Below are positions 21,729-36,970 of a DNA stretch of 54,332 nucleotides, in pieces. This DNA comes from Acidimicrobiales bacterium (lineage in GTDB: Bacteria > Actinomycetota > Acidimicrobiia > Acidimicrobiales > SHLQ01). A program made the position numbers and the translations under genes. The stretch is taken from the NCBI GenBank assembly GCA_020628865.1, contig JAHDEJ010000014.1, forward strand, positions 1-54,332, written 5' to 3'. The notes below the pieces were generated by a model, which was not told the origin of the DNA, ran no database searches, and saw only the letters and a program-made list of their open reading frames with translations. Numbering within the stretch: position 1 is the stretch's first letter; every line of letters begins with the position of its first letter.

Positions 21729-23143
21729 GACTCCCCCCGCTGCTCATCGCGGCGCAGCCCGGGGATGCCGGTGAAGCGCGGGCGGATCGCCCCGAGTGAC
21801 CGCTCGGCCCACATCCCCCTCCACACGCCGGTGCAGTAGGCGGCATCGTCCAGCGTCCGCAGCGCGATCCAACGAACGGGGTCGATGTCGGGGCGGACCT
21901 CCACCCACTCCACGGTCGGTGCCGCCACGAGCGCTGCGAGAAGTGGCCCCGGACGTCGGGCACGCACTGCGGCGACGACGGCAATCGGCAGCCAGGCCCG
22001 GCCGACTGCCTGGGCGAGCCAACGGCCGCTGAACAACGTGCCTCGCCCGCCAAGGCGAAACGCCGTTTCGACAGGGTCGGAGACCGACCCGCGCAAGCGG
22101 CGGGCGAGCGCAGCCGTGCTCCCCACACCGAGCGCGAGGCCCATGGCGCGGACCGGGCCGCGGCCGAAGGCCAGGAGCAGCCAGGTCGCCAGACTCCACG
22201 CATTGAGCCGAACCGGAGCCGCAGACCCCGGATGCCGCTGGTCGAGCGGTGCAGCAGCCGAGCCATAGCCAATGCGTTGTTGCCACATCGACCGCCACGA
22301 TGCTCGAGGCGCATGCACCGCGCTCGCCTCCGGCGCATACCGCACCCGCCAGCCGGCCCGATCGAGCCGCCACACGAGATCCACGTCCTCGCCGAAGCGA
22401 AGTCCGGCATCGAACCCGTCGAGTTGCTCGAACGCGGAGCGGCGGACGAGCAGCACGGCCGTGGGAACGTGCGAGACGCGTGCGTCCGACCGTACCCGGG
22501 ACGGGCGGGGGCCGAGGTCGAGGGGCGAACGGTACGACTCGTAACGGCCGCGAAGTCCCGCCGCCGGACCGGACCGGACTCGTGGCGCCACTGCGCCGAC
22601 CTGCGGGTCGGCGAAATGTCCGGCAAGCAGCGCAGTCGCCCCTTCGTCCAGCGTCACCCCCGCATCGATGAAGCCGATGATCGGGGCCGCGCCCTCAGCA
22701 GCCCCCGTCGTGCGAGCAACTCCCGGGCCTGCGTTGTCGACGATTCGGATGTATCGCCAGCCCTGCTCCGCACACCGTCGACGCAGCTCGTCGGCGTTCG
22801 GGCCGCCGTCGTGCACCACCGTGGTTCCGGCGGGAAGGGTCGGGGCGATCGGTTCGGCGCCGTCGTACACGGGAACGACCCAGTCGACCTCTGCGTCATC
22901 CAGCGGCTCCGGCACCGGGTTCGCCATCCCCGCATCGGTGAGCGACCGCCAGAGCCGACCGACCGCCGGTGTCCACGAGGGCGTCGTTTCGGATCGAAGC
23001 CCGGCGACAAGCTCCATCCCCCGACCCGAAAGACGAAGGATCCGAAGCGGCGAACCACCCACCAGAGAACGCGCGTCGTGGTCGATCTGCACGTCCGACT
23101 CGAGGACCACCGGAAGCCCCTCCGGCAGTTGCGATGGCTCCAT
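21716..23143 (-). CDS. mftF: Mycofactocin system glycosyltransferase MftF
   Basis: This 475-residue protein is a GT-A type glycosyltransferase that adds glucose units to premycofactocin. The N-terminal 85 residues are a family-specific domain (LRILRLSGRGMELVAGL). The GT2 core follows, with VDWVVPVYDGAE, IGFIDAGVTL in the DxD position and FGEDVDLVWRLDRAGWRVRY, then hydrophobic C-terminal helices. It is divergent from mftABC over 50 bp and probably has a leaderless promoter (TACGCT at 23152-23157 on the other strand). Finding it next to mftA makes the assignment secure. It is the outermost gene of this mft block. Confidence 0.93.
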   Translation of the reverse strand: MEPSQLPEGLPVVLESDVQIDHDARSLVGGSPLRILRLSGRGMELVAGLRSETTPSWTPAVGRLWRSLTDAGMANPVPEPLDDAEVDWVVPVYDGAEPIAPTLPAGTTVVHDGGPNADELRRRCAEQGWRYIRIVDNAGPGVARTTGAAEGAAPIIGFIDAGVTLDEGATALLAGHFADPQVGAVAPRVRSGPAAGLRGRYESYRSPLDLGPRPSRVRSDARVSHVPTAVLLVRRSAFEQLDGFDAGLRFGEDVDLVWRLDRAGWRVRYAPEASAVHAPRASWRSMWQQRIGYGSAAAPLDQRHPGSAAPVRLNAWSLATWLLLAFGRGPVRAMGLALGVGSTAALARRLRGSVSDPVETAFRLGGRGTLFSGRWLAQAVGRAWLPIAVVAAVRARRPGPLLAALVAAPTVEWVEVRPDIDPVRWIALRTLDDAAYCTGVWRGMWAERSLGAIRPRFTGIPGLRRDEQRGESVRS

Positions 23144-23193
23144 GGCGCTGCAGCGTAGTAATTTGATGAGCGCACGACCGACAGGGAGCCATC

Positions 23194-23316
23194 ATGCAGC
23201 CAGAAGCCACCGACGAACTCGAGACCGAAACCGTCGAAGAGACCGACGCCGAGCTCGTGGAAGAGGAGCTGCTGGTCGAGGAGATCTCCATCGACGGCAT
23301 GTGCGGCGTCTACTGA
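23194..23316 (+). CDS. mftA: Mycofactocin precursor peptide MftA
   Basis: This 40-residue peptide follows a GGGAG ribosome site. It is strongly acidic (long runs of E, T and D) and ends with the diagnostic core IDGMCGVY, whose terminal Val-Tyr is decarboxylated and cross-linked by MftC. It is followed by mftB after 5 bp. The gene is below the size many gene callers accept. Confidence 0.95.
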   Translation: MQPEATDELETETVEETDAELVEEELLVEEISIDGMCGVY

Positions 23317-23321
23317 ATCGG

Positions 23322-23618
23322 GTGCAACCACTCGCTTCTGATCAGGCCTGGACCCTCAGCTCGTCCATCGGACTGCGGCCCGAACCGTTCGGCGCGCTGG
23401 CGTACCACTTCGAGTCCCGCCGCCTGGTCTTCCTCAAAACCAACGACCTCGTCGACCTGGTCCGCTCGCTGGCCGACCATCCGACGATGAACGACGCACT
23501 GGATGCAGCCGGGCTGGAAGGCCGACGTCGCACCAGCCACCTCACCGCACTCGCCTCCCTCGCCGACGCCGGCGTGATCGAGCTGCGCTCACCGATCCCC
23601 GCCGAGGCCACCACATGA
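23322..23618 (+). CDS. mftB: Mycofactocin peptide chaperone MftB
   Basis: This 98-residue protein is the RiPP recognition element that binds MftA and presents it to the radical SAM enzyme. It shows the PqqD-like pattern LRPEPFGALAYHFESRRLVF followed by a helical segment (DALDAAGL). The start is the GTG 5 bp after the mftA stop, without a strong ribosome site, implying coupling. The end overlaps mftC by ATGA. Confidence 0.92.
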   Translation: MQPLASDQAWTLSSSIGLRPEPFGALAYHFESRRLVFLKTNDLVDLVRSLADHPTMNDALDAAGLEGRRRTSHLTALASLADAGVIELRSPIPAEATT

Positions 23619-24763
23619 CCACACGAACACCCCCGTTGACCGAGCAGCTCAAGCGCGGGCTGGACGCTCCCATCTGCCTGACCTGGGAACTCACTTACGC
23701 CTGCAACCTCGATTGCCTCCATTGCCTCAGCGCCTCGGGACGACGCGACCCGAACGAGCTGAGCACCGAGGAGTGCCTCGCCGTCATCGACGAGCTGAAC
23801 CGCCTGCAGGTGTTCTATGTGAACATCGGTGGCGGCGAGCCGATGATCCGCCGGGACTTCCACACCATCGTGGACCACGCCATCGCCAACCACGTGGGCG
23901 TCAAGTTCTCGACCAACGGCACCTTCCTCGACAAGGAAGCCGCACGGCGCTTTGCCTCGATGGACATGCTCGACATCCAGATCAGCCTCGACGGATTCGA
24001 CGCCGGCACGAACGACGCACTTCGCGGCGAGGGCAGCTGGGCGGCCGCCCGCCAAGCCATGGACAATCTGGCGGCCGCCGATTTCGGCGAGTTCAAAATC
24101 TCGATCGTCGCCACTCGCCACAACGTGAGCCAGCTCGACGACTACAAGCAGATGGCCGACGACTACGGCGCGCAGCTCCGGCTCACCCGCCTCCGACCGT
24201 CCGGCCGCGGCGTCGACAGCTATCAGGACCTTCGCCTCAGCCACCAGCAACAGCGCGACGTCTACCACTGGATCATGGATCGACCCGACGTCCTGACCGG
24301 CGATTCGTTCTTCCACCTCAACGCCCTGGGCGAGTCACTCCCCGGCCTCAACATGTGCGGGGCCGGCCGAATCGTCTGCCTGATCGACCCGGTCGGCGAC
24401 GTCTACGCCTGCCCGTTCGTCATCCACGACGAGTTCAAAGCCGGCAACGTCCGTGACGCTGGCGGCTTCACCGGCGTCTGGCAGAACTCCGAACGATTCC
24501 TGGAGCTCCGAGAGCCCGAGAGCGCTGGGGCCTGCGCATCCTGTGGCAGCTTCGACGCCTGCGGCGGCGGGTGCATGGCCAGCAAGTTCTTCACCGGTCT
24601 CCCACTCGACGGCCCGGACCCGGACTGTGTGTGGGGGCACGCCGACGACGCGCTTGCCGCCGTCGACGGATCGGCCATCCCGCGGATGACCAGCGATCAC
24701 TCCAAGCCGGGTGCACGAACCGACGCGTCGGTTCCCGTGCTGCTCACCACGAAGCGCCCCTAG
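23615..24763 (+). CDS. mftC: Mycofactocin radical SAM maturase MftC
   Basis: This 382-residue radical SAM enzyme oxidatively decarboxylates the MftA C-terminal tyrosine and forms the valine-tyrosine cross-link. The CxxxCxxC motif is C30, C34, C37 (YACNLDCLHC), and GGGEPM is the SAM-binding motif. The C-terminal SPASM region carries the auxiliary cluster cysteines (GACASCGSFDACGGGCM, PDPDC). It overlaps mftB by 4 bp and ends the rightward mft block. The next gene is convergent. Confidence 0.95.
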   Translation: MTTRTPPLTEQLKRGLDAPICLTWELTYACNLDCLHCLSASGRRDPNELSTEECLAVIDELNRLQVFYVNIGGGEPMIRRDFHTIVDHAIANHVGVKFSTNGTFLDKEAARRFASMDMLDIQISLDGFDAGTNDALRGEGSWAAARQAMDNLAAADFGEFKISIVATRHNVSQLDDYKQMADDYGAQLRLTRLRPSGRGVDSYQDLRLSHQQQRDVYHWIMDRPDVLTGDSFFHLNALGESLPGLNMCGAGRIVCLIDPVGDVYACPFVIHDEFKAGNVRDAGGFTGVWQNSERFLELREPESAGACASCGSFDACGGGCMASKFFTGLPLDGPDPDCVWGHADDALAAVDGSAIPRMTSDHSKPGARTDASVPVLLTTKRP

Positions 24764-24815: not shown

Positions 24816-25118
24816 TCAGACCTTCTTGCGAGGGATGTCGGCGTTCTTCAGCACCTTGCCGTCGGCATCGAGAATGCCGGCCTTGGTACCGATGGACAGC
24901 GTGTTCGCAAGCACCAGATCGGCGCCGTTGATCATCACCCACTTGTAGCCCTCAAGCTTCTTCGCACGCTTGAAGACCTTCTTCATGTCGTTCAACTCCG
25001 CGGCAAGCAGAAGCTGCCCCTTGTCGAACACCATGTCGGCCTTGCCGCTCTCATCGGCCGAAGCGCCGACGGTTTCTGCGGCCTGGGCCATCATCTGGTC
25101 GTGGTTCAAGCGGGCCAT
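24816..25118 (-). CDS. Unrecognised 100-aa protein at the end of the PTS operon
   Basis: This 100-residue soluble protein has no motif I know. It is lysine-rich, with the central KVFKRAKKLEGYKWVMI and the ends MARLNHDQMMAQAAETVG and ADIPRKKV. The ATG shares one base with the EIIA-HPr stop, so it is clearly the last gene of the PTS operon and translationally coupled. It could be a small regulatory or enzymatic partner of the transporter, but nothing in the sequence shows which. Confidence 0.65.
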   Translation of the reverse strand: MARLNHDQMMAQAAETVGASADESGKADMVFDKGQLLLAAELNDMKKVFKRAKKLEGYKWVMINGADLVLANTLSIGTKAGILDADGKVLKNADIPRKKV

Positions 25119-25849
25119 CAGAGTTCTGCTTCCGGTGTGGTGAGAATGCGGGTGACTTCGGCCAGCGCGGCATCGCCGTCTTCGCCGGTCACGTCGATTG
25201 ACACCGTATCGTTCGAAACGGCCCCGAGCGACAGCAGGCTCATGATGCTGTTCGCCTTGGCGGAACGGCCGTCCTTCGAGATGAGGATCTCGCCGTCGTA
25301 CGCCTTGGCGTACTCCACGATCAGGCTTGCGGGGCGGGCATGAAGGCCGGCCTCGCTGGTGATGGTGACCTCGGCGCTGACGGAGTCGGGCTCGTCGTCC
25401 TCCACCGGCGTGTTCAGCGTGGCGTGCAGGTGGGCGGCATCGGTCGTGCTGCCGAGTTCGGCGGCCAGATCCTCGTCCTGCAGAACCTCGGCGATGTGCG
25501 ACAGGATCTGCACGTGCTCTTCGCCACTGGCGGCGAGTCCGATCACAAGGTGTGCCGTGCCGACGCCCCAGTCGATCCCCTCGGGGTACTGGGCCACGAC
25601 GATGCCGGTGCGCTGGATGGCTTCCTTGCTTTCGAAGGTGCCGTGCGGCATCGCCACACCGTTGCCGAGGAAGGTCGAGACCTTCTGCTCACGCTCGAGC
25701 ATGCCGTCCACGTAGTCGCTGGTGGCGTGTCCCCGCTCGACCAGCATGTTGCCGACGAACGAGATCGCTTCGTTCATGGAAACGCTCGGAAGTCCGATGA
25801 CGACGGCTTCACGGGCGAGGAGTTGATCATCTTGGGTGGCTGGGCTCAC
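25118..25849 (-). CDS. PTS fusion protein: mannitol/fructose EIIA plus HPr
   Basis: This 243-residue protein fuses two phosphocarrier domains. The EIIA domain of the mannitol/fructose class (residues about 10-150) has its phosphorylated histidine at H69 (AMPHGTFESK). A short acidic linker leads to HPr (about 157-243), with H170 in GLHARPAS and the regulatory serine equivalent S201 in NSIMSLLSLG. Phosphate passes from EI to HPr, then to EIIA and EIIB. The start is a GTG overlapping the EIIB stop by 4 bp. FruB-type proteins have the same pair of domains, but here the EIIA is next to a mannitol-type EIIB. Confidence 0.92.
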   Translation of the reverse strand: MSPATQDDQLLAREAVVIGLPSVSMNEAISFVGNMLVERGHATSDYVDGMLEREQKVSTFLGNGVAMPHGTFESKEAIQRTGIVVAQYPEGIDWGVGTAHLVIGLAASGEEHVQILSHIAEVLQDEDLAAELGSTTDAAHLHATLNTPVEDDEPDSVSAEVTITSEAGLHARPASLIVEYAKAYDGEILISKDGRSAKANSIMSLLSLGAVSNDTVSIDVTGEDGDAALAEVTRILTTPEAEL

Positions 25850-26178
25850 AGGACCGACACCACGTCGTCGCCGGCCTTGAGGGTTTCCACCAGCTTGGTG
25901 ACGGCAGGGTCACCGAAGAAGAGCATGAAGGAAACGATGGCAGCGTCCGGGAACTGGGTCCGGGCACTCGCTGCGAGAGATTTGTGCGTGACGATCACGT
26001 CGGCGTGGCTCGGGACCTGGTTCACCGGTGAGTGCACCACTTCGATGTCGAGCTTGGCCTTCTTGACCATTTTTTGCAGCTGCTTCGCGCCCATGAGGCT
26101 GCTGCCCATGCCTGCCTCGCAGGCAAAGACGATCAGCTTGACGTCGCTTGCTGACTTGACCACCAGGCCATCTGACAT
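25846..26178 (-). CDS. PTS mannitol-type EIIB
   Basis: This 110-residue cytoplasmic EIIB carries its phosphorylated cysteine at C20 in FACEAGMGSSLMGA, the classical motif of the mannitol family. It passes phosphate to the sugar alcohol bound by EIIC. In E. coli MtlA the B, A and C domains are fused; here EIIB, EIIA-HPr and EIIC are separate. A 132-bp gap with a hairpin separates it from EIIC. Confidence 0.93.
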   Translation of the reverse strand: MSDGLVVKSASDVKLIVFACEAGMGSSLMGAKQLQKMVKKAKLDIEVVHSPVNQVPSHADVIVTHKSLAASARTQFPDAAIVSFMLFFGDPAVTKLVETLKAGDDVVSVL

Positions 26179-26256
26179 TTTCGTCTCAGTTCGTGTTCAG
26201 TGGCGCCCGTCATGGACGCCGGTTCGGGGGGTGGGTGAAAAGTGTACGAAGAGAGA

Positions 26257-26286
26257 AATTGGGTGCGGCTCTTTCGAGCCGCACCC
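26257..26286 (-). terminator. 13-bp hairpin between the EIIC and EIIB genes
   Basis: TTGGGTGCGGCTC (26257-26269) and GAGCCGCACCCAA (26274-26286) pair perfectly around a 4-nt loop. On the transcribed strand TTTCTC follows, a weak U-rich tail. It may partly end transcription after the EIIC gene or fix the ratio of membrane to soluble PTS parts. Confidence 0.6.
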
Positions 26287-26310
26287 AACGTCTCTGGGTC
26301 GCCGCCTACG

Positions 26311-27492
26311 TCAGGCAGACGCTCCGGGGAGATTCATACCAGGCACGTCCGGCATGGCATCGGCCAGCGATGCATCGCCGTCTTCGAGGTCGGTCATTTC
26401 TGCGACCGGGAAGAGCCGGAGCAGAATCGAGCCGACGAAGAAGCTCGCCACGGCTCCAACTGCGACACCGGCGAGGACACCGAATGCGGCGCCTCCGCTG
26501 GTCGGAAGCAGTGTGAGGTAGGCGAAGATACTGCCCGGTGATGGCGGACCAACGAGGCCTGCGTCGGTGGCGACGAAGACGATGTCGGCGGAGATGCCAC
26601 CGGCCCACATGGCGCCGATCATGACCGGGTTCATCAGGACGTACGGGAAGTACACCTCGTGGATGCCACCGAGGAAGTGGATGATGGTTGCGCCAGCGGC
26701 AGCCATCTTGGCGAGGCCCTTGCTGGCGAACCAGTAGGCGCCGAGGAGACCGAGGCCCGGTCCGGGGTTCGACTCGAGCATGAAGTAGATCGAGCGGCCG
26801 GAGTCGGCAACGTCGGTTGCACCCAGCGGGGTCAGCACACCGTGGTTGATGGCGTTGTTCAGGAACAGCACCTTGGCAACCTCGATTGGGATGTCGGCGA
26901 GGGGAAGGAGACCGGCATCGGCGATGCCCTCCACCATGTTGCCGAAGGCCCGTGCGAGTGCAGCCATGACCGGACCGACGATCCAGTAGCCGAGGAAGGC
27001 GAGGCCGAGACCGGCGAAGCCCTGCGAGAAGTTGTTGAAGAGCATCTCGAAACCGGTGGGAGTCCGGGACTCGAGGAATTCGTCAACCTTCTTCATCACG
27101 AAGCCGGCGAGCGGGCCAATGACCATGGCGCCGAGGAACTGAGGCGGATCGCCGCCGATGGTCTCGCCAGCGGATTCGATCTCGAAGGAAGCTCCTCCGA
27201 TGACACCGAACACGGCGATGGCGGCGAGCACGCCACCACGGTGACCGTGGACGAGCTTGCCACCCGTGTAGGCCACCAGCGTCGGCAGCATGTACTTGAT
27301 CATCGGACCGACGAGCGCACCCGTCAGATCACCCCAGATTTCGCCGTCATTGCCCCCACCGAAGCCGAGCTCTGCGAGCCAGCCGGTCGGAATGACGAGT
27401 GCGGTGATGAGGCCCCAGGCGATGAATGCTCCGATATTCGGAATCACCATCCCTGCGAGCCAGCCCCCGAAACGTTGTAGACGTTCTTGCAT
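26311..27492 (-). CDS. PTS mannitol-type EIIC permease
   Basis: This 393-residue integral membrane protein matches the N-terminal (C) domain of mannitol permeases. It opens QERLQRFGGWLAGMVIPNIG and contains NNAINHGVLTPLG and the substrate-loop signature GGIHEVYFPYVLMNP (GIHE, the GI(x)E motif). It has about eight membrane-associated segments. The ATG at 27492 follows GGAGGG and is used because the longer frame has no sensible N-terminus. Probable substrate: mannitol or another polyol. Its gene is preceded by a 258-bp leader. Confidence 0.92.
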   Translation of the reverse strand: MQERLQRFGGWLAGMVIPNIGAFIAWGLITALVIPTGWLAELGFGGGNDGEIWGDLTGALVGPMIKYMLPTLVAYTGGKLVHGHRGGVLAAIAVFGVIGGASFEIESAGETIGGDPPQFLGAMVIGPLAGFVMKKVDEFLESRTPTGFEMLFNNFSQGFAGLGLAFLGYWIVGPVMAALARAFGNMVEGIADAGLLPLADIPIEVAKVLFLNNAINHGVLTPLGATDVADSGRSIYFMLESNPGPGLGLLGAYWFASKGLAKMAAAGATIIHFLGGIHEVYFPYVLMNPVMIGAMWAGGISADIVFVATDAGLVGPPSPGSIFAYLTLLPTSGGAAFGVLAGVAVGAVASFFVGSILLRLFPVAEMTDLEDGDASLADAMPDVPGMNLPGASA

Positions 27493-27750
27493 AACGATTT
27501 GTCCCTCCAATTTAGGTACCACGAGCATTCCCCAACAGGTGTGACGATCGCCACTTCCAATAGGGCGGTGGCCCCTTCCGACAAGTTGTGCGCAGCCCGG
27601 GTTTGACTTCTGGGAAATCGCGGTGAAACACGCACGAAACAAAGCGAAAGCCTTGATAAACCAACAGACTCGGACGCAGATGGTCCGACCGACGTGTCAG
27701 CGGCCTCCGACAACTTGCCCGAGGCGCAACTTGACGCAGGACCGTTTTTG
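27493..27750 (-). promoter_or_regulatory. 258-bp leader of the EIIC gene with repeated CAASTTG motifs
   Basis: No gene is seen. The odd palindrome CAASTTG occurs three times, at 27582-27588, 27711-27717 and 27728-27734. The first two sit in a shared longer context: TCCGACAA, then a GC-rich stretch, then TTGAC, near 27575-27607 and 27705-27735. These are plausible sites for the PRD regulator encoded immediately upstream. A possible promoter is TTGTCG, 16 bp, TATTGG within 27560-27590. All of this is inference. Confidence 0.35.
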
Positions 27751-29256
27751 TCAGACGTGTGTGGAAAGCACTCGGACGTCCGCCGAGGAGAGCAACGGGC
27801 TCACAACGACGACCGGTGCGCTGTCCTCGGCAAGGGGCACCGTGGAGATCACGACATCGAAGTTGGACGTGTCTCGTTCCTCGTACTTCGGCGCCGAGAG
27901 CACCTCGGCCAGCGCGAGCTGGGGGAACTCGGCCTGCAGGCGGGAAACCAGCACCCACGCGGTGGCCATACCACTCGGACACACCACGAGCGCTTGCTTG
28001 CGCGGCCGCAGGTGGGCCCGCTCCATGGCGCCGGACAGGTACATGGTGATGAAACCGACCTCGTCGGCGGGAAGTGTGGCGTCCAGGGAGTCACCGATCA
28101 GGTCGGCGACCCGCTGCGAGACGACGTGGACGTCGGGATAGCGCTCGATCACTTCAGCCAACAGCGGGTTGTGCACGGGAAGCCCGTACCGCAGCCGAAC
28201 CTGGAGCCTGCTCAAGTGCATCGCCAGGCTGCGGCGGAGCTCATCGTCGGCCCCGAGCGACGCATGCAGGTTGTCGGACGCCTCGGCAAGGATCGTGTCG
28301 AGCAAGTCGGAATGGTCGGCTCCTTCTGCGGGAACCTCGGCCAGCGCATCGAGTCCGAGCAGGTACTCGGCGAGTGCGGCGATCTCCTCGTCGGGCAACT
28401 GTTGCCGTCCGGTCTCGGCCAGCGCATCCGCGAGCAGCCGAACACTGTCGAAGACCGGATGGTCTCGGAGCGACCGCAGCTGGCCGGGGACGAGCTCGAG
28501 CGTGCTTCCTGCCTCGTAGCGGGCCTCGGTGATCGCCAGATACATCGTGAAAACGAGATCGCTGTTGCCGGTCGCCAGGCGGTCCGTGAGCGGGCTGGCC
28601 TCGAGCGACTTGTGACACTCGCGGATCGACAGCGCAGCGAAGCGATCCCGCAGCCCGGCCGGCACACGAACCTGGACGAGCTCGGCATCGTCGAAGTCGG
28701 TGGTCAGCAGTTCGGTCAGGACGTCGTTCGGAACCGCCTCGAGCAGGAGTTGCACCAACGCGCGCCGAATCCGCTGCTCGCTTCCGTGGAGCGCGATTCC
28801 CTTGCCTGGACGGCGAACGACCGGCAACCCCATCCGATCCAGCCAGGGCTCACAGCGGCGAAGGTCGCGACGGGCGGAGGTCTTCGACACCTCGAGCTCG
28901 TCGTTCAGCTGGTCGAGCGAGATCGTGTCGGGCCAGGACCAGAGCAAGAGGTCCAGCAGGAGGTGTTCACGCTCCTCGGGCGCGTACACACGTGGTGCCA
29001 GATCCCGATCCGCCAGATCGTCGAGAATGCGTTCGCGTGTTGCCGCATCGGCAACAACCGACAGGCCGCTCCCCCGCTGGCGCCGCAACTCTGCGCCGTG
29101 CGACCGCAGATAGTTCTCGGCGGCGGAGAGCCGATAGCGCACGACACGCTCGCTGAGCCCGAGGTCGTGGGCGAGGTGAGAGGTCGACCTGGCCTCGTCC
29201 TGGGACAGCAGCCATCGGGTGATGCGAATCACCCGCGTGTCGAGAGGCACGCTCAT
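27751..29256 (-). CDS. PRD-domain PTS transcription regulator (MtlR-like)
   Basis: This 501-residue regulator has two N-terminal helix-turn-helix domains (STSHLAHDLGLSERVVRYRL near residue 25; ISLDQLNDELEVSKTSARRDL near 110) and two PTS regulation domains (about 195-400) carrying histidines for phosphorylation. The last segment resembles an EIIB domain with its cysteine in VVCPSGMATAW. The EIIA-like C-terminal domain present in Bacillus MtlR is absent. It overlaps ptsI by 4 bp and is followed by the EIIC leader, its probable target. PTS phosphorylation should set its activity according to sugar supply. Confidence 0.88.
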   Translation of the reverse strand: MSVPLDTRVIRITRWLLSQDEARSTSHLAHDLGLSERVVRYRLSAAENYLRSHGAELRRQRGSGLSVVADAATRERILDDLADRDLAPRVYAPEEREHLLLDLLLWSWPDTISLDQLNDELEVSKTSARRDLRRCEPWLDRMGLPVVRRPGKGIALHGSEQRIRRALVQLLLEAVPNDVLTELLTTDFDDAELVQVRVPAGLRDRFAALSIRECHKSLEASPLTDRLATGNSDLVFTMYLAITEARYEAGSTLELVPGQLRSLRDHPVFDSVRLLADALAETGRQQLPDEEIAALAEYLLGLDALAEVPAEGADHSDLLDTILAEASDNLHASLGADDELRRSLAMHLSRLQVRLRYGLPVHNPLLAEVIERYPDVHVVSQRVADLIGDSLDATLPADEVGFITMYLSGAMERAHLRPRKQALVVCPSGMATAWVLVSRLQAEFPQLALAEVLSAPKYEERDTSNFDVVISTVPLAEDSAPVVVVSPLLSSADVRVLSTHV

Positions 29257-30950
29257 GGCAGAATCAGCTCGTCCAGAATCATCTCTCGGAATTCTGCCCC
29301 ATCGGTGGCCTCGGCGAGTGCCGCAAGGACCCGGGTGCGCAATTCTGGCTTCTGTTCACTGACGGTCGCCTTGATGAGGTTCACGGCGCTTGGCGTCACG
29401 GAAAGCTTGTCGACGCCGAGTGCGGCGAACACCGAGGCCGCCACCGGATCGGCGGCCGCGAGACCGCACACCGAGACCGAACGGCCGGCCGGCGCAGCGC
29501 CGGTGACAGTGGCCCGGCACAGTGCGAGCACGCCCGGATGCAGCGGATCCTGGAGTGCTCCGAGCGCTGCATGGGTTCGATCGGCGGCCAACGTGTACTG
29601 CGTCAGATCGTTGGTTCCGATCGAGAAGAAGTCGACTTCTGCAGCGACCGCGCCAGACGTGAGCGCCAAAGAGGGCACCTCGACCATCACACCGAGCGGG
29701 AGATCACCGATCTCCGCGCCCTCGTCGACGAGCGCAGCCCGCACCTCGGCCACGCGGGTCCGCACCCAGCGCACCTCGGAGGCACTGGCGACCATCGGAA
29801 TCATCAGCTGCACCGGCCCATGTGCTGCGGAACGGAGACAGGCGCGAACCTGCGTGTCGAACAGTTCGCTGAACTGCTCGTAGAGGCGGACGCCACGAAT
29901 CCCGAGAAACGGGTTCTCTTCCTCGTCCATGTCGAGGAACTCCGCCGGCTTGTCGCCGCCGATGTCGAAGGCGCGGATGACCACCGGGTCCTCGAAGCCC
30001 TCGGCGGCAGCCCGGTAGGCGGCGTACTGCTCTTCCTCGGTGGGCGGCGTCGAGCGGTCGAGGAACAAGAACTCGGTGCGGAAGAGGCCCACGCCGTCGG
30101 CCGCGGCCGCAACGCCGTCTTCGATGTCCGACACGTTGCCGACGTTCGAGGCGACCGTAATCGGCGCGCCATCGAAGCTGGCTTTGGTCCCGTGAGCGCC
30201 GGCCGCCCACTCGGCGATCTTCGCGGCCCGCTCGGCACGGGTCGCAAAGTCGGCCTTGTCGTCGTCGTTGGGATCGAGGATGAACTCGCCCGAGCCGCCA
30301 TCGAGGGCAGCCGCAGCGGCACCATCAGCGGCGGCGACGACACCATCCAATGCGACCACAGCGGGCACACCCAGCGAACGCGCAATGATCGCCACGTGGC
30401 TCGTCGGGCCGCCCTGCTCCGTCACGAAGCCGAGCACGCGCTCCGGATCGAGATCGGCCGTCTGCGCGGCGGTCAGCGTGACTGCAACCAGGATGCTCGG
30501 CTCGTCGAACGAAAGATCGGACGCCTCGACGCCGGCGAGATGCAGCTTGAGCGCCGTCGCCACCTCGGCGACGTCTGCACTGCGCGCAGCCAGATACGGG
30601 TCGGGCAGCGACGCAAGCATCGCCTCGAGCTCGTCGGATGCCGTCTGCAGCGCATCGGCAAGGCTCAGACCGGACGACAGATGGCCGTCGATTGCGTCGG
30701 CGAGCATCGGGTCTTCCGCCATCAGCGCCTGGGCCTGCAGAACCTGACCAGCCTCGTCCTGGCCCCGCTCGGTTGCGGACGTTGCCCGTGCGTTCAGCGA
30801 TGCGGCAACTTCGGGCATCGCCTCGGCCACGGCGGCCGAAGGATAGTCGAAGGCGGGCAGTTCGACGACCTCGTCGCGCAGGACCACCAACGGGCCGTGT
30901 GCGACTCCCGGTGACGCTCCGATTCCCTGCAGTCCGACGCGTGCGTTCAT
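29253..30950 (-). CDS. ptsI: PTS enzyme I (phosphoenolpyruvate-protein phosphotransferase)
   Basis: This 565-residue enzyme moves phosphate from PEP to HPr. The active-site histidine is in TEQGGPTSHVAIIARSLGVP near residue 185. The PEP-binding barrel follows, with VGLFRTEFLF, ENPFLGIRG and the conserved cysteine loop SVCGLAAADP. Its length is normal for the family. ATGA-type overlaps join it to the regulator downstream and the membrane protein upstream. Together with the EIIA-HPr fusion it makes the operon independent of any general PTS genes elsewhere. Confidence 0.95.
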   Translation of the reverse strand: MNARVGLQGIGASPGVAHGPLVVLRDEVVELPAFDYPSAAVAEAMPEVAASLNARATSATERGQDEAGQVLQAQALMAEDPMLADAIDGHLSSGLSLADALQTASDELEAMLASLPDPYLAARSADVAEVATALKLHLAGVEASDLSFDEPSILVAVTLTAAQTADLDPERVLGFVTEQGGPTSHVAIIARSLGVPAVVALDGVVAAADGAAAAALDGGSGEFILDPNDDDKADFATRAERAAKIAEWAAGAHGTKASFDGAPITVASNVGNVSDIEDGVAAAADGVGLFRTEFLFLDRSTPPTEEEQYAAYRAAAEGFEDPVVIRAFDIGGDKPAEFLDMDEEENPFLGIRGVRLYEQFSELFDTQVRACLRSAAHGPVQLMIPMVASASEVRWVRTRVAEVRAALVDEGAEIGDLPLGVMVEVPSLALTSGAVAAEVDFFSIGTNDLTQYTLAADRTHAALGALQDPLHPGVLALCRATVTGAAPAGRSVSVCGLAAADPVAASVFAALGVDKLSVTPSAVNLIKATVSEQKPELRTRVLAALAEATDGAEFREMILDELILP

Positions 30951-31627
30951 TTCAGATCCTTCTCGAATACTCGATAGAGCAGCGCACCCATGACAAGGGT
31001 GATGCTGCTGGTGACGATGAGCCCGGCCGCAGCGCCGCCGATCCGCGCGGCCAGGGGCAACGACGGGAAGCCGGCGGCGATCATGCCGAACAGGTTGAAG
31101 ATGAAGAGCAGACCACCGACGGCGAAGAGTCCGGTCCGCCGGCCCTCGGTGAGTCGCACGCTGGTTCCGAGCGCCATCATTCCGCCCTTGGATGCGTCGT
31201 CGGCGACGACGTACCCGTGAAACGCATAGAGGAGGACCACGAACAGCGATGGGATGCCGGCAAAGTACTGGATGCCGAGAAGCACACCGGCCCAGAACCA
31301 GAACGAGGCAACGAACTGGTGGAAGAACCGCTTCGGATCGACGAACGGTTCGCCGAGTTCGACCTTGCGACCGTCAGCTGCTGCGAGGGCGTAGCGGTAC
31401 CACGGGACAGATGCGGTGGCCGCGAGGATCAGTCCGGTCAGGTCCAGAGCGATGTACTCGAGTGTCCGCCCCTGATCGAGCAGGTCCTGCGCCGGCCAAC
31501 GAAGCGCACCATAGATGGCGAACGTGATCACTCCGCCAAGGGTCAGGGGAATGACCGCCCCCCACCAGGCCTTGACCGAATCCGTGAAGGTCGGCAGGAG
31601 TTCCACTCCGAAGGTCGAATCGCTCAT
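30947..31627 (-). CDS. Membrane protein of unknown function in the PTS operon
   Basis: This 226-residue protein has about six hydrophobic segments (VIPLTLGGVITFAIYGAL, FFHQFVASFWFWAGVLLGI, FAVGGLLFIFNLFGMIAAG). It matches no transporter family I can name. It is linked by 4-bp overlaps to ptsI and to the PfkB kinase. Co-translation with metabolic enzymes suggests a tied role, such as a sensor or membrane accessory, but there is no direct evidence. Confidence 0.75.
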   Translation of the reverse strand: MSDSTFGVELLPTFTDSVKAWWGAVIPLTLGGVITFAIYGALRWPAQDLLDQGRTLEYIALDLTGLILAATASVPWYRYALAAADGRKVELGEPFVDPKRFFHQFVASFWFWAGVLLGIQYFAGIPSLFVVLLYAFHGYVVADDASKGGMMALGTSVRLTEGRRTGLFAVGGLLFIFNLFGMIAAGFPSLPLAARIGGAAAGLIVTSSITLVMGALLYRVFEKDLK

Positions 31628-32574
31628 GTGTCTCCCAAGAGGGTCAGGCGATCGGGAACCCCGGCGGTCACCTCCGGCCCCGCACCGGGGGCTGGGGGTG
31701 TGAATGCCGTCGTTTCCGACTGCACCGCAGCCGCCCCCCAGGCGACTGCAGTTCGCAGTGCATTTTCGCCCAGACCGCCCGCAGAGAGAAATCCAGCCAA
31801 CATCGCGTCGCCGGCGCCGACGGTGTTTCGCACCTCGACCGGTTCGCTCCAGGCGTGAATCGCACCGCCCGAATCGACCAGCAGCGCGCCGTCGGACCCC
31901 ATGCTCACAAGCACCTGTTCGATGCCGCCCGCCACGAGCGCCGTCGCCGCGTCGACCACGTCGCCAACCGTCGTGAACGTCGCACCGACGGCTTCGGCAA
32001 GCTCGCTCGTGTTCGGTTTGATGAGTGCCGGCCCGGCTTCCATCGCCCGGACGAGCGCTGCACCGCTGGCGTCGATGGCCACACGCACGTCGGAGTCGGC
32101 CAGCGCACCGACCAGCTCTGCGTGGAAGGCGTCACCGCAGCCGGCCGGGACCGACCCGCAGGAGGCGAGCCATCCGGCGCCGGAGGCCATCGCCGCGTCG
32201 ACGGTGGCGTCGACCATCGCCGACACCTCGTCTGGGGTCAGCGTCGGACCGGCCTCGTTGAACTTCGTCGTCGTGCCATCGGACTCGATGACCGAGAGGT
32301 TCGACCGCACGGCCTCGGCGATCGGGCTGACAGTGATCGCCATCGACGCAAGATGGTCTTCGAGCAGCGCCCGAAGCGCCGCACTGTCGGCCGCGTTGGC
32401 AGGGAAGACCGCCGTCGAGGCGAGCCCGGCCGTGGCGAGCGCCCGCGCAACATTGATCCCCTTGCCTCCGGCTTCCACCGTGGTTTGCAACGACCGGTTC
32501 ACTTCGCCGACCTCGACGCGCTCGACCAGCATCGTGCGGTCGAACCCCGGGTTCGGCGTGAGCGTGACGATCAC
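31624..32574 (-). CDS. PfkB-family sugar kinase, 1-phosphofructokinase-like
   Basis: This 316-residue kinase opens MIVTLTPNPGFDRT, the pattern of FruK and LacC (TLNPAxD), and ends with the PfkB ATP-site motif VGAGDAMLAGFL containing the catalytic aspartate. GGKGINVARAL is also conserved. FruK converts fructose 1-phosphate to fructose 1,6-bisphosphate; LacC acts on tagatose 6-phosphate. It follows the dehydrogenase gene by 5 bp, so it should use the product of that enzyme. The exact substrate is inferred, not proven. Confidence 0.88.
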   Translation of the reverse strand: MIVTLTPNPGFDRTMLVERVEVGEVNRSLQTTVEAGGKGINVARALATAGLASTAVFPANAADSAALRALLEDHLASMAITVSPIAEAVRSNLSVIESDGTTTKFNEAGPTLTPDEVSAMVDATVDAAMASGAGWLASCGSVPAGCGDAFHAELVGALADSDVRVAIDASGAALVRAMEAGPALIKPNTSELAEAVGATFTTVGDVVDAATALVAGGIEQVLVSMGSDGALLVDSGGAIHAWSEPVEVRNTVGAGDAMLAGFLSAGGLGENALRTAVAWGAAAVQSETTAFTPPAPGAGPEVTAGVPDRLTLLGDT

Positions 32575-32579
32575 GTCAC

Positions 32580-34340
32580 TCAGCTCGCGTGGTACTTCTC
32601 GAAGAGGATGCGTTCGGCTTCGTCGGTCCAGGTGTTGTTCTCGCCCAGGGCGGCAGCAATGTCCGGATCATCGGCGGCGAGCTGCTCGAGGCTCTGGAGC
32701 TCGAGACCACTGAGCTGCGGGAAGATGACGACCTTGCCGGCGTAGTCGCCTTCCATGAGTGCACGGACACCGCTCTGCCCGGCCTCGATGCCACCGACTG
32801 CGGCGAGCGCTCGGCCCGGCGACAGCGATCCATCGAGCGCCTTTTCGAGCACGGTCGCCTGATCGTCGATCGACGAACCCGACGTGCCGGTGAACTGCGC
32901 GTTGTGCAGGTAGGTGTTGCTGAGGTCGAGCGGTGCCATCGTTCCGTTGGGAACGCCGGCGAACAACACGAGCATGCCGTTCGGCCCCATCCAGGCTCCG
33001 GCCTGGGCCATCACCGGGCCGACCGGCACGGTGACGATCACATCGTCGGCGCCGCCTTCGGCGTACTGCTCGACGAGCTCGACGACCTTTTCCGGTTCGT
33101 TGCCGGGGTTGATGAAGATGAGCGTCTTGCCGTGTTCTTCGGCCAGCGGTGCCAGCAGGGTGCGGGCCGCTTCGATCCGGTCGTCGTCGAGGTCCGAACC
33201 GATGAGCACCGACGGCCCGTCGGCGAACTCGATCGCACGCTGGATGTGCATCTGCCCCATCGGGCCGGCGGCACCGACGAAGAGGGCGGTGCCTCCCTTG
33301 ACGACGTCGCAGCGGTTCCGGGCTTCGCCATAGGCGCCGGCGATGTCGGGACCGGTGGTTCCGATGAACGCGATGTAGTGGTAGTGGAGGCGGCCGACGT
33401 CGACCTGGGGCAGACCGTCGAGCGCCGTCGTGCCGACCATGTTCATGGTGCCGCGGTAGGCGATCGCCTTACCGAGCTCTTCCATGAGGGCGGCGTGGCG
33501 GGGATCGAGGACGATGATGTCGTCGAATCCTTCACCGCCGGTGAGTTCCTCGCTCAGGCCGGCGACATCTGCAGCGCCGATGCCGTTGCGTTCGATGACC
33601 TCCGCGCCGGACGACTTCTTGTCGTTGACCAGGTCGCGGGTGGTCTCGGAGACGTTGCTGAGGATGATGCGGGCCGGAGCATCGAGGCCACGGCTCATCG
33701 TGTACACGGTCGATGCGGAGCCATCGCCGATGATCAGCATCGTGCCGCCCTCGAGGGGTTCGAGGCGCCGACGCTGCGTGTAGGACGCTTCGACGCAGGC
33801 CCACGGCTCGGACAGCGCTGCGGCCGCGTAGCCGATCTCGTCCGTCACGGGGATCACGTAAGCGCCATGGTCGGCGTCGAGAACCTCGGGGCCGATCAGG
33901 TGGTACTGGATCAGTCCGCCGGGGACGGTGTAGCCGTAGGCGGCGGCCCGACCGTCGACGTAGATGTCGGGCTGGATGGCGAGTCGCTGACCGGCCGAGT
34001 AGTTGTCGGCCAGGTCGCTGCCGACTTCGATCACGGTGACGCTCACTTCATGGCCGAGGCGGGTCGGTTCGACCTTCAGGTCTCGCCCGTACAGCTTCGG
34101 GTGGTCGCCGCCCTGCTTGATCAGCTTCACGTCCGAGAAGCACAGGCCAACGGCGTCGACTCGGATGAGCAGCTGGTTCGCGGCCGGCGACGGGATCTCG
34201 ACCGGCTCGGGGGCGCCATCGATGCCAATGCTCTCGATCCCGGTTCCATACGTGTTCCAGGCGAGATTCGGACTCGGCAACGGGGTCTTGCCCGCTGCGA
34301 AATCCATGTACGTCCAGTCCCCTTGCTCAGCCACAGTCAC
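32580..34340 (-). CDS. Zinc-type medium-chain dehydrogenase with two Rossmann domains
   Basis: This 586-residue protein starts like a polyol-type MDR enzyme. Likely zinc ligands are C67 (GLCFSD), H97-E98 (LGHEVSV) and E178 (SEPWACV), the Cys-His-Glu pattern of sorbitol dehydrogenases; the four-cysteine structural zinc lobe is absent. Two complete nucleotide-binding domains follow: the first from about 198 with GDGSAS, the second from about 349 with GAAGPMGQ, each ending with its own G-rich closing strand. Family members such as sorbose-1-phosphate reductase or YggP have one and about 410-425 residues. The start is a GTG behind AAAGGGG. It is the first gene of the PTS operon and probably oxidises the polyol phosphate. 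Confidence 0.85.
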   Translation of the reverse strand: MTVAEQGDWTYMDFAAGKTPLPSPNLAWNTYGTGIESIGIDGAPEPVEIPSPAANQLLIRVDAVGLCFSDVKLIKQGGDHPKLYGRDLKVEPTRLGHEVSVTVIEVGSDLADNYSAGQRLAIQPDIYVDGRAAAYGYTVPGGLIQYHLIGPEVLDADHGAYVIPVTDEIGYAAAALSEPWACVEASYTQRRRLEPLEGGTMLIIGDGSASTVYTMSRGLDAPARIILSNVSETTRDLVNDKKSSGAEVIERNGIGAADVAGLSEELTGGEGFDDIIVLDPRHAALMEELGKAIAYRGTMNMVGTTALDGLPQVDVGRLHYHYIAFIGTTGPDIAGAYGEARNRCDVVKGGTALFVGAAGPMGQMHIQRAIEFADGPSVLIGSDLDDDRIEAARTLLAPLAEEHGKTLIFINPGNEPEKVVELVEQYAEGGADDVIVTVPVGPVMAQAGAWMGPNGMLVLFAGVPNGTMAPLDLSNTYLHNAQFTGTSGSSIDDQATVLEKALDGSLSPGRALAAVGGIEAGQSGVRALMEGDYAGKVVIFPQLSGLELQSLEQLAADDPDIAAALGENNTWTDEAERILFEKYHAS

Positions 34341-34530: not shown

Positions 34531-35016
34531 TCAGGCGGCGCGTTGGGTGGCGATTGCGGCGATCAGTTCGTCGTGGATGCGATCGAACTCCTTGCCGAAG
34601 CGCGGCGCGATCCCCACATGGATCGGACCGTTCTGGTTCCACGGCCGACGGATGTAGAGCACCCGGCCCTCCGTGTCGAGCTTGCCGCCCGAGTCCGACA
34701 GCAACACGGTGTCCTTCTCGGCCCGCACCTCGATCTCGGCCTCCCACACCGGCACCGTGGTCGTGCTGAAGAAGTTCCGAATCATCACGCCGGCCTTCGA
34801 AACGGTGAGCCGAAGCTGTGCCACCCGCACGACGATGGCGATGTGGGCGGCCAACCAGATCCACGCAAGGATGCTCGGCGACTGCACCGCCGTCCAGAAC
34901 GAGGGAATGGCCAACGCCGCCGTCAGAACGATGATCGTCTTGGAGGCCTTCGCAATGACCTTCACGTCGTCGTTGGTCGGGGCGGAGTTCAGATGGGGGG
35001 TCTCTGCAACTGTCAC
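34531..35016 (-). CDS. Two-helix membrane protein with a PH-like domain
   Basis: This 161-residue protein has two hydrophobic segments near the N-terminus (TIIVLTAALAIPSFW, ILAWIWLAAHIAIVV). A strand-rich cytoplasmic part follows (LRLTVSKAGVMIRNF, WEAEIEVRAEKDTVLL, VLYIRRPW), like bacterial PH domains. The GTG at 35016 is preferred to an upstream TTG at 35082, which lies in the likely promoter (TTGTAC, 16 bp, TACTTT on this strand). It sits between mftE and the PTS operon. The function is unknown. Confidence 0.55.
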   Translation of the reverse strand: MTVAETPHLNSAPTNDDVKVIAKASKTIIVLTAALAIPSFWTAVQSPSILAWIWLAAHIAIVVRVAQLRLTVSKAGVMIRNFFSTTTVPVWEAEIEVRAEKDTVLLSDSGGKLDTEGRVLYIRRPWNQNGPIHVGIAPRFGKEFDRIHDELIAAIATQRAA

Positions 35017-35133
35017 GATGTCACCGATTCTTGTGCGCCTGGAGCAAAAAGTAGCGTCAGGCCCATTCGGTACAAGGACCAAACAGTTGAGTTCACTGCA
35101 TGTTTACAAACACATGACAGCGGGCACAGCGCT

Positions 35134-35799
35134 TCAGGAATGATCGAGCTCGTCCGCCAATTGCTGACGCAGACGTTCCCAGAGCCGTTGGCCTTCCTCC
35201 GCTGACGCGCCGGTCGGATCACCGAGGATTCCGGTGGCGCTGTGTGCCCGCAACCCATCGCGCTGGAGCGCGGGCAGGAGCTCACCGATCGGCGTGGTCG
35301 TACCGGTGACCGCGCGATCCATGTCGACGACGTCCGGAGCGATGGCCAGCAGCAACGACGTCTCCGTTCGGCCGGCGTGGGCGTCGCCGGGAAGCTGCGG
35401 CCACACCGCTCGGACGTCACGGCCGTCGGCGACCGACTGCTCCACGGCGGCCAGCACGGCCTCGTGGTTTCCGCCATGTCCGTTCACGATCACGACCCGC
35501 CGATGCGGTGGGATCGCCGACCGCACCAGCTCGACGAGCAGGTTGGCGAGTGCGGCGGTTCCGATCGACAAGGTGCCCGGAAAGTCCGAGTGCTCGCCGC
35601 TGCTGCCATAGGGCAGCGCCGGAGCGACGACGACGTCGGTCCGGCCGTCCGCAGCCCGGCGACACCACTCGGCGGCGATCCGCGTGTCGGTGTCCATCGG
35701 CAGGTGCGGGCCATGCTGCTCGGTCGCCCCCAGGGGCACGAGCAATGTCGTCCCGTCCACCGGCAAATCGGGCCAGGCCGTCGGCCCGAGGTCCACCAT
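35134..35799 (-). CDS. mftE: Mycofactocin system creatininase-family peptidase MftE
   Basis: This 221-residue metal-dependent amidohydrolase releases the terminal Val-Tyr-derived dipeptide from modified MftA. Creatininase metal ligands are visible: GATEQHGPHLPMDTD near residue 24-38, HSDFPGT, the NGHGGNHEAV glycine loop and DAHAGRTETS. The gene follows mftD by 1 bp. It is 10.4 kb from mftC, an unusual separation for this cluster. Confidence 0.93.
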   Translation of the reverse strand: MVDLGPTAWPDLPVDGTTLLVPLGATEQHGPHLPMDTDTRIAAEWCRRAADGRTDVVVAPALPYGSSGEHSDFPGTLSIGTAALANLLVELVRSAIPPHRRVVIVNGHGGNHEAVLAAVEQSVADGRDVRAVWPQLPGDAHAGRTETSLLLAIAPDVVDMDRAVTGTTTPIGELLPALQRDGLRAHSATGILGDPTGASAEEGQRLWERLRQQLADELDHS

Positions 35800-35800
35800 C

Positions 35801-36970
35801 TCAGAGACGCGGTGGGCAGAACCCGTCCGGAATGATCACGTCATCCGGCGAAAGATCGGCGATGGACGACTTGCCCAATCCGAGCAGGGTCGAGTCGATC
35901 CCGTTGCGAAGAATGTCGAGCACGTTCTCCACGCCGGCCTGGCCGTTGGCCGCGAGACCCCACAGGTACGCACGCCCGATCAGCACGCCTCGCGCGCCGA
36001 GCGCCAACGCCTTCACGACATCGCTGCCGCGCCTGACGCCTCCGTCGAGCAACACCTCGATGTCGGCGCCGACCGCGTCGACGATCTCCGGCAGGACCCG
36101 GATCGGGGCCGGCGAACTGTCGATGTTGTTGCCACCGTGGTTGGACACCGAGATGGCGGTCGCCCCGGCGTCGACGGCGCGCCGTGCCTCATCCGGCCGG
36201 CCGACGCCCTTGACCATGAACGGCCCACCCCACGCCTCGACGAGCCGGGCCACGTCCTCCCAGGTGGGTGGCGGCGTTCCCATCCACGTGCCGTACGCCT
36301 CGAAGAATCCGGGCGCCGGAGCGTCCTTCGGGCCGAAGTTCGGCACACCGAGCTGCGGAAGCGCACCGGAGCGCACCCAGTCCTTCAGCCATGCCGGCCG
36401 GGTCAGGACGTCGGGTGCATGCTTCATCGCCGTCTTGAGGTCGATCGACTGTGGGATCTCCGGGCTGCCCCAGTCCCGCCCGTGCGAAAACGACCAGTCG
36501 AGTGTCAGGATCATCCCGACGGCACCGGCGGCCCGAGCACGTTCCATGCGCCCGATCATCGAATCGAGATCGCCGGCCCAGTAGATCTGGAAGAAGAGCT
36601 GCGGATTGCCCTGGATGACCGATTCGATCGGCTTGCTCCCGAACGAGCTCAGCCCCATGGGAATCCCCCGGGCGGCCGAACCTCGAGCCACCGCTTCTTC
36701 ACCATCGGGGTGCACGGCCTGCACGCCGGTCGGCGAAATCATCACCGGCATCGAGGCAGGCTGGCCCATGATCGTGGTGTCCATGGCCCGTTCCGGCGAC
36801 TGCCCGGCGGTCACAGGCCGAAGGCCGAGTTCGTTGAACGCCTGGAGATTGTCGTTCATCGACACGCCGGCTTCGGCACCGGCGATCAGCGCTCCATAGA
36901 CCGAACGCGGGAGACGCTTCTTCGCCCGCTTCTGGGCGATCGCAACCGTCTCGAACCACTCGTTTGCCAT
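35801..36970 (-). CDS. mftD: Pre-mycofactocin synthase MftD (FMN-dependent)
   Basis: This 389-residue enzyme belongs to the FMN-dependent alpha-hydroxy acid dehydrogenase family and oxidatively deaminates the cyclised dipeptide to premycofactocin. Visible features are KRLPRSVYGALIAGAEAG at the N-terminus, LTLDWSFSHGRDWG (the family's substrate-loop variant), VKGVGRPDEARRAVDAGA, SNHGGNNIDSS and LDGGVRRGSDVVKALALGA, the FMN phosphate-binding strand. It forms a tight pair with mftE. The acyl-CoA synthetase gene lies 33 bp upstream and is probably in the same transcript. Confidence 0.92.
   Translation of the reverse strand: MANEWFETVAIAQKRAKKRLPRSVYGALIAGAEAGVSMNDNLQAFNELGLRPVTAGQSPERAMDTTIMGQPASMPVMISPTGVQAVHPDGEEAVARGSAARGIPMGLSSFGSKPIESVIQGNPQLFFQIYWAGDLDSMIGRMERARAAGAVGMILTLDWSFSHGRDWGSPEIPQSIDLKTAMKHAPDVLTRPAWLKDWVRSGALPQLGVPNFGPKDAPAPGFFEAYGTWMGTPPPTWEDVARLVEAWGGPFMVKGVGRPDEARRAVDAGATAISVSNHGGNNIDSSPAPIRVLPEIVDAVGADIEVLLDGGVRRGSDVVKALALGARGVLIGRAYLWGLAANGQAGVENVLDILRNGIDSTLLGLGKSSIADLSPDDVIIPDGFCPPRL

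Follow-up and report, generated by a model that had tools for sequence, protein, structure and literature searches.

A zinc medium-chain dehydrogenase with two consecutive coenzyme-type domains encoded in an acidimicrobial PTS operon

The 586-residue open reading frame that begins with GTG and occupies positions 32580..34340 on the minus strand of the window, which is the whole 54,332-nucleotide stretch of DNA analyzed here, is a zinc medium-chain dehydrogenase (MDR) in which one catalytic domain is followed by two consecutive coenzyme-type domains, designated R1 and R2. The explanation that best accounts for the whole, and which we regard as reasonably probable, is that this protein is a duplicated MDR of the SorE/YggP type, with R2 as the NAD(P) site, R1 as a partner in cis, and the conversion of mannitol-1-phosphate to fructose-1-phosphate as its reaction. 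A search of the open-access literature found no MDR chain with a duplicated coenzyme domain, and no PDB entry among the matches listed contains two. The clean split of features between R1 and R2 offers a concrete test of how an obligate dimer contact can turn internal, and a route from mannitol through fructose-1-phosphate would explain the use of polyols in many Acidimicrobiia and Chloroflexota that have a mannitol-type PTS without MtlD.

Architecture of the protein and its family

The GroES-like catalytic domain (residues 1-195, 33756..34340, on the minus strand like all other features of the protein) carries the zinc ligands C67 (34140-34142), H97-E98 (34047-34052), and E178 (33807-33809). 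The initial annotation had named these as polyol-type catalytic residues; they stand where it placed them and are invariant in all 63 homologues. Pfam recognizes ADH_N in this domain (37.5 bits) and ADH_zinc_N farther along the chain (51.5 bits), each above its gathering score, with ADH_zinc_N matching two stretches of which that at residues 361-499, within R2, is the better. R1 spans residues 197-345 (33306..33752) and R2 residues 348-505 (32826..33299), and the remainder (32580..32825) returns to the catalytic domain and ends in a tail of the SorE/YggP type (WTxEAE). A promoter and terminator scan upstream of the gene found none.

A full AlphaFold model based on 63 homologues reaches a mean pLDDT of 94.1 and a pTM of 0.92, and shows alternating strands and helices twice over, at approximately residues 197-345 (R1) and 348-505 (R2), followed by the C-terminal return. 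Among PDB entries it most resembles sorbitol dehydrogenase and further MDRs (3qe3: Z 28.5 over 333 residues, rmsd 2.7). Folded alone, R1 reaches a pLDDT of 94.6 and matches the coenzyme domains of MDRs with Z up to 10.7, and the profiles of R1 and R2 align over 144 columns with an E value of 1.8e-22; a sequence search of the PDB with the R1 profile gave no match. Prediction of the structure of the whole protein and of R1 alone, part of the check that had first been proposed, yielded Rossmann-type domains and no unrelated fold. The original description of two full nucleotide-binding domains, each with a glycine motif, is upheld as to the two coenzyme-type domains, by both the model and the profile alignment, but not as to the motif, which R1 lacks.

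A gene fusion or frameshift artefact as the source of the unusual length was rejected because many genomes encode intact homologues that are equally long. A scan of genome contigs kept 80 loci with homologues of ~560-600 residues, from Acidimicrobiia, Chloroflexota, Armatimonadota, and a few other taxa, and a further homologue lies on a Deinococcus plasmid; 97 distinct sequences in this size range make up the comparison of the two-domain family. Such homologues occur in 24 of the 301 Chloroflexota genomes sampled (~8%) and in 2 of 198 genomes of the window's own class. That relatives have about 420 residues, as was claimed at the outset, is true of SorE and YggP (410-425 residues), although homologues of 560-600 residues are common.

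SorE (410 residues) and YggP (425 residues), each with one coenzyme domain, are the nearest named relatives. The profile of the catalytic domain scores 82-84 bits on SorE, YggP, and an L. plantarum homologue versus at most 28 bits on the other MDRs of the protein's own genome. For the R2 profile the corresponding values are 85-121 bits versus at most 28, with YggP as its best single-domain match (121 bits). With the R1 profile, most single domains of the SorE/YggP type reach 24-44 bits, versus at most 9 for the genome's other MDRs. For SorE and YggP themselves, the one coenzyme domain gives 97-121 bits with R2 and 35-44 bits with R1. Because proteins of the SorE/YggP type have a single coenzyme domain and ~410-425 residues, the 586-residue protein, with its extra domain of ~150 residues, is treated as a variant lineage rather than filed as SorE. 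Judged by sequence, its architecture is a real and conserved variant among MDRs of the SorE/YggP type. Among the single-domain relatives of ~410 residues, L119, L120, and L121 have aspartate in place of the zinc-ligand histidine (GDE for GHE) and constitute a distinct, unnamed subfamily.

Divergence of the two coenzyme-type domains and the proposed role of R1

The predicted NAD(P) loop of R2 is GAAGPMG (residues 356-362, 33255..33275), as foreseen in the initial annotation, which had assigned the better glycine loop to the second domain. Each of the 63 aligned sequences fits the pattern G[AGV]xGPMG at this loop, and the model places a helix after strand 1 (residues 360-371). At the place in R1 where a dinucleotide-binding loop would sit, the window protein has GDGSAS (residues 205-210, 33711..33728) and its homologues mostly GxPxDxxxY; residues 205-223 are coil in the model, and no helix follows strand 1. 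The suggestion that GDGSAS is a degenerate NAD loop does not stand, R1 being without GxGxxG across nearly all of the family. Since the homologues mostly have a different pattern there and the helix is absent, the glycine-rich string in the window protein is a local accident. Binding of NAD by R1 is unlikely, as the R1 model does not contain the helix after strand 1 that forms the pyrophosphate-binding element, and a second NAD site in R1 was rejected, motif and helix both having been lost. The alternative raised from the start, that one of the domains may be structural, is upheld.

How the two copies have diverged is apparent from the 97 distinct two-domain proteins, of which 94 have G..G[PA]MG in R2 and only 2, by chance, have GxGxxG in R1. 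A histidine-tyrosine pair near the end of R1 (His319-Tyr320, 33381..33386; HY) is present at this site in 96 of the 97, the remaining case being a misplaced segment, and in none of the R2 domains, where the usual letters are VYL. All 15 single-domain relatives have it as well (as VHY, IHY, or FHY), located after the last Rossmann strand and ahead of a GT/S-S/T-G segment; the segment GTSGxxxxD is kept by R2. At the level of sequence, these patterns show that the copies have split the ancestral features, R2 keeping the loop and R1 the HY pair, with each losing what the other kept.

A tree of 77 coenzyme domains (R1, R2, single-domain relatives, and other MDRs) gathers all R1 domains into one clade with support of 100/100 and places R1 and R2 together on the opposite side of a branch (support 96/82) from the single-domain relatives and other MDRs. 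This topology indicates that the coenzyme domain was duplicated in tandem within the gene, once and long ago, probably in an ancestor with a single Rossmann domain; details inside the tree are unsure because some rows are long-branched. Borrowing of R1 from another MDR or Rossmann family is disfavored by the tree and by the profile scores.

In dimers of MDRs, the coenzyme domains pack together, and the stretch that precedes the interface strand extends into the substrate pocket of the neighboring subunit. Met306/Leu309 of HLADH and Met285 of the Thermoanaerobacter secondary ADH are residues that we take to be donated in this way, and the tyrosine of the SorE VHY aligns with Met285, in a pairwise alignment that is weak (~15-16 bits). 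In the mechanism proposed, the simplest reading of R1, NAD(P) would be bound by R2 alone, placed over the zinc of the catalytic site (C67, H97, E98/E178), and R1 would take in cis the place occupied in ordinary MDR dimers by the coenzyme domain of the partner subunit, with its HY segment extending to the active site or to the pseudo-dimer interface, much as its counterpart in other MDRs does in trans. That R1 is such a stand-in is a proposal whose chances we put as roughly even. In the full model a strand forms at residues 312-314, as it does at the equivalent 468-470 of R2, and it disappears when R1 is predicted by itself, which would be expected of a strand that pairs with R2; a covariation test for contacts between R1 and R2 was null (22 pairs seen versus 24 expected, Neff 64).

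R1 could instead be a structural or allosteric pseudodomain that has no partner role and either stabilizes the fold or binds some other ligand, such as a sugar phosphate or a regulator, with HY kept for folding. The whole family retains R1 despite the lost nucleotide features, and the conserved residues D314, G316, R317, H319, and Y320 could equally form a ligand site. These residues are nevertheless concentrated in the stretch turned toward the dimer partner in MDRs, and, of the features kept by the single-domain enzymes, HY is the only one that R2 has lost, an outcome that a generic scaffold does not predict, so that we consider the pseudodomain rather unlikely. The full combination of a single-chain pseudo-dimer dehydrogenase, an R1 that keeps only the residues donated across the MDR subunit interface, and a mannitol route through fructose-1-phosphate is put forward tentatively.

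Operon context and predicted reaction

Downstream of the dehydrogenase gene, on the same strand and with ends that partly overlap, are genes for a 1-phosphofructokinase-type kinase (31624..32574; TIGR03168 at 267 bits, over the cut-off, and TIGR03828 at 267 of 292), a 226-residue membrane-like protein that neither Pfam nor NCBIfam recognizes (30947..31627), PTS enzyme I (29253..30950; TIGR01417, 413 bits), a PRD-type transcriptional regulator with a weak IIB-like domain (27751..29256), a mannitol-type PTS IIC whose start codon is unsure (26311..27642; TIGR00851, 384 of 468 bits), a mannitol-type PTS IIB (25846..26178; IIB region of the MtlA model NF011663, 73 bits), and a PTS IIA-HPr fusion (25118..25849; PF00359 and PF00381, NF008319). 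Positions 25118-34340 on the minus strand form a self-contained PTS operon in an acidimicrobial genome, with its own enzyme I and with HPr fused to IIA. The membrane-like protein between the kinase and enzyme I is kept in Acidimicrobiia operons and in 28 PTS loci, and may be part of the polyol system. On the other side, a 183-residue protein (34531-35082, minus strand) with a weak bacterial PH-like match is encoded upstream of the dehydrogenase, an arrangement shared by L002, L003, L009, and L013; in the window itself, it seems to belong to the run of mycofactocin (mft) genes.

At loci of the close clade, mannitol-type PTS genes are present in 61 of 65 cases and 1-phosphofructokinase in 60 of 65, and some of the four loci without PTS genes are on short contigs. 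The mannitol-type PTS next door would supply D-mannitol-1-phosphate, which the dehydrogenase would oxidize, at the carbon next to the phosphate, to D-fructose-1-phosphate; the adjacent 1-phosphofructokinase would then produce fructose-1,6-bisphosphate, bypassing MtlD. Conversion of mannitol-1-phosphate to fructose-1-phosphate is predicted for the close clade from operon and genome content, because the gene is linked to PTS and 1-phosphofructokinase genes, because MtlD is over its cut-off in 0 of 37 genomes tested (with one near miss, G597, at 318 of 356 bits), and because E. coli yggP sits behind cmtBA in a mannitol-PTS operon (cmtB-cmtA-yggP-glpX). The sole PF01232 relative of MtlD in the window's own genome is a fructuronate-reductase-like protein.

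The polyol may not be mannitol, because the scores of IIC (384 of 468) and of the kinase (267 of 292) are under the strict equivalog cut-offs for MtlA and 1-phosphofructokinase. The same architecture might then serve another PTS polyol (glucitol, galactitol, or arabitol) and yield another ketose-1-phosphate, such as tagatose-1-phosphate or the L-sorbose-1-phosphate that is the substrate of SorE, and the IIB has a weak likeness to galactitol IIB as well. We judge this unlikely, however, as IIC, IIB, and IIA all score highest on mannitol or fructose models and the kinase is closest to 1-phosphofructokinase. In the distant two-domain clade (L065-L081 except L066, L068, and L069, together with L084), PTS genes are found at 0 of 14 loci, and the neighbors at several loci are SDR, FGGY/sugar kinase, class II aldolase, and rhamnose-isomerase-like genes; the substrate would therefore differ between the clades, and these neighbors suggest a different sugar pathway for the distant one.

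The window also contains mftB, mftC, mftD, and mftE, split by the PTS operon and on opposite strands (mftB/mftC at 22668-24760 on the plus strand and mftD/mftE at 35134-36970 on the minus strand), a disposition which suggests that the operon and the mft genes were brought together by rearrangement. The initial annotation had envisaged a dual-nucleotide nicotinoprotein, with a fixed nicotinamide in one domain recharged by mycofactocin and NAD(P)H exchanging at the other, and had looked to homologues of 560-600 residues for a tie to mft genes. Apart from the mft genes in the same window, the evidence makes this very improbable and the mycofactocin link was rejected: R1 has neither dinucleotide loop nor helix; on TIGR03989, a family of mycofactocin-dependent zinc ADHs confined to mycofactocin species (PMC3023750), the protein reaches 23.4 bits where the cut-off is 440; MftC is over its cut-off in only 10 of 50 genomes carrying a homologue, the other 40 having none above it; and the homologues, common as they are, have mft genes nearby at 0 of 65 close loci within the stretch examined per locus, the very outcome that the initial annotation had named as refuting its reading, with mft genes adjacent to the dehydrogenase gene in no genomes but this one and its neighbor L002, which is 98% identical. 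Known mycofactocin nicotinoproteins, moreover, are SDRs that bury NAD by a loop insertion (PMC5264612) and not by a second Rossmann domain.

Comparison with known systems

Among known systems, SorE, the L-sorbose-1-phosphate reductase of the Klebsiella sor operon, shares with the 586-residue protein its catalytic domain, the GPMG loop, a GTSGG segment, a WxxEAE tail, VHY, and a PTS encoded alongside, but has 410 residues, a single coenzyme domain, and a PTS of the mannose type, and a 1-phosphofructokinase gene is absent from the stretch of its locus shown. SorE also has a side activity on fructose-1-phosphate. YggP of E. coli likewise has a PTS alongside, in this case of the mannitol type, and differs in having 425 residues, a single coenzyme domain, and an annotation simply as a zinc-binding dehydrogenase. 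The operon context suggests, for the 586-residue protein, an activity of the ketose-1-phosphate reductase type. Sorbitol dehydrogenase and other polyol MDRs (3qe3, 1pl6) share the fold and the C/H/E/E zinc site, but have one coenzyme domain and act on unphosphorylated polyols. MtlD, mannitol-1-phosphate 5-dehydrogenase, performs the step after a mannitol PTS that is proposed here for the duplicated dehydrogenase, yet belongs to an unrelated, long-chain family and yields fructose-6-phosphate.
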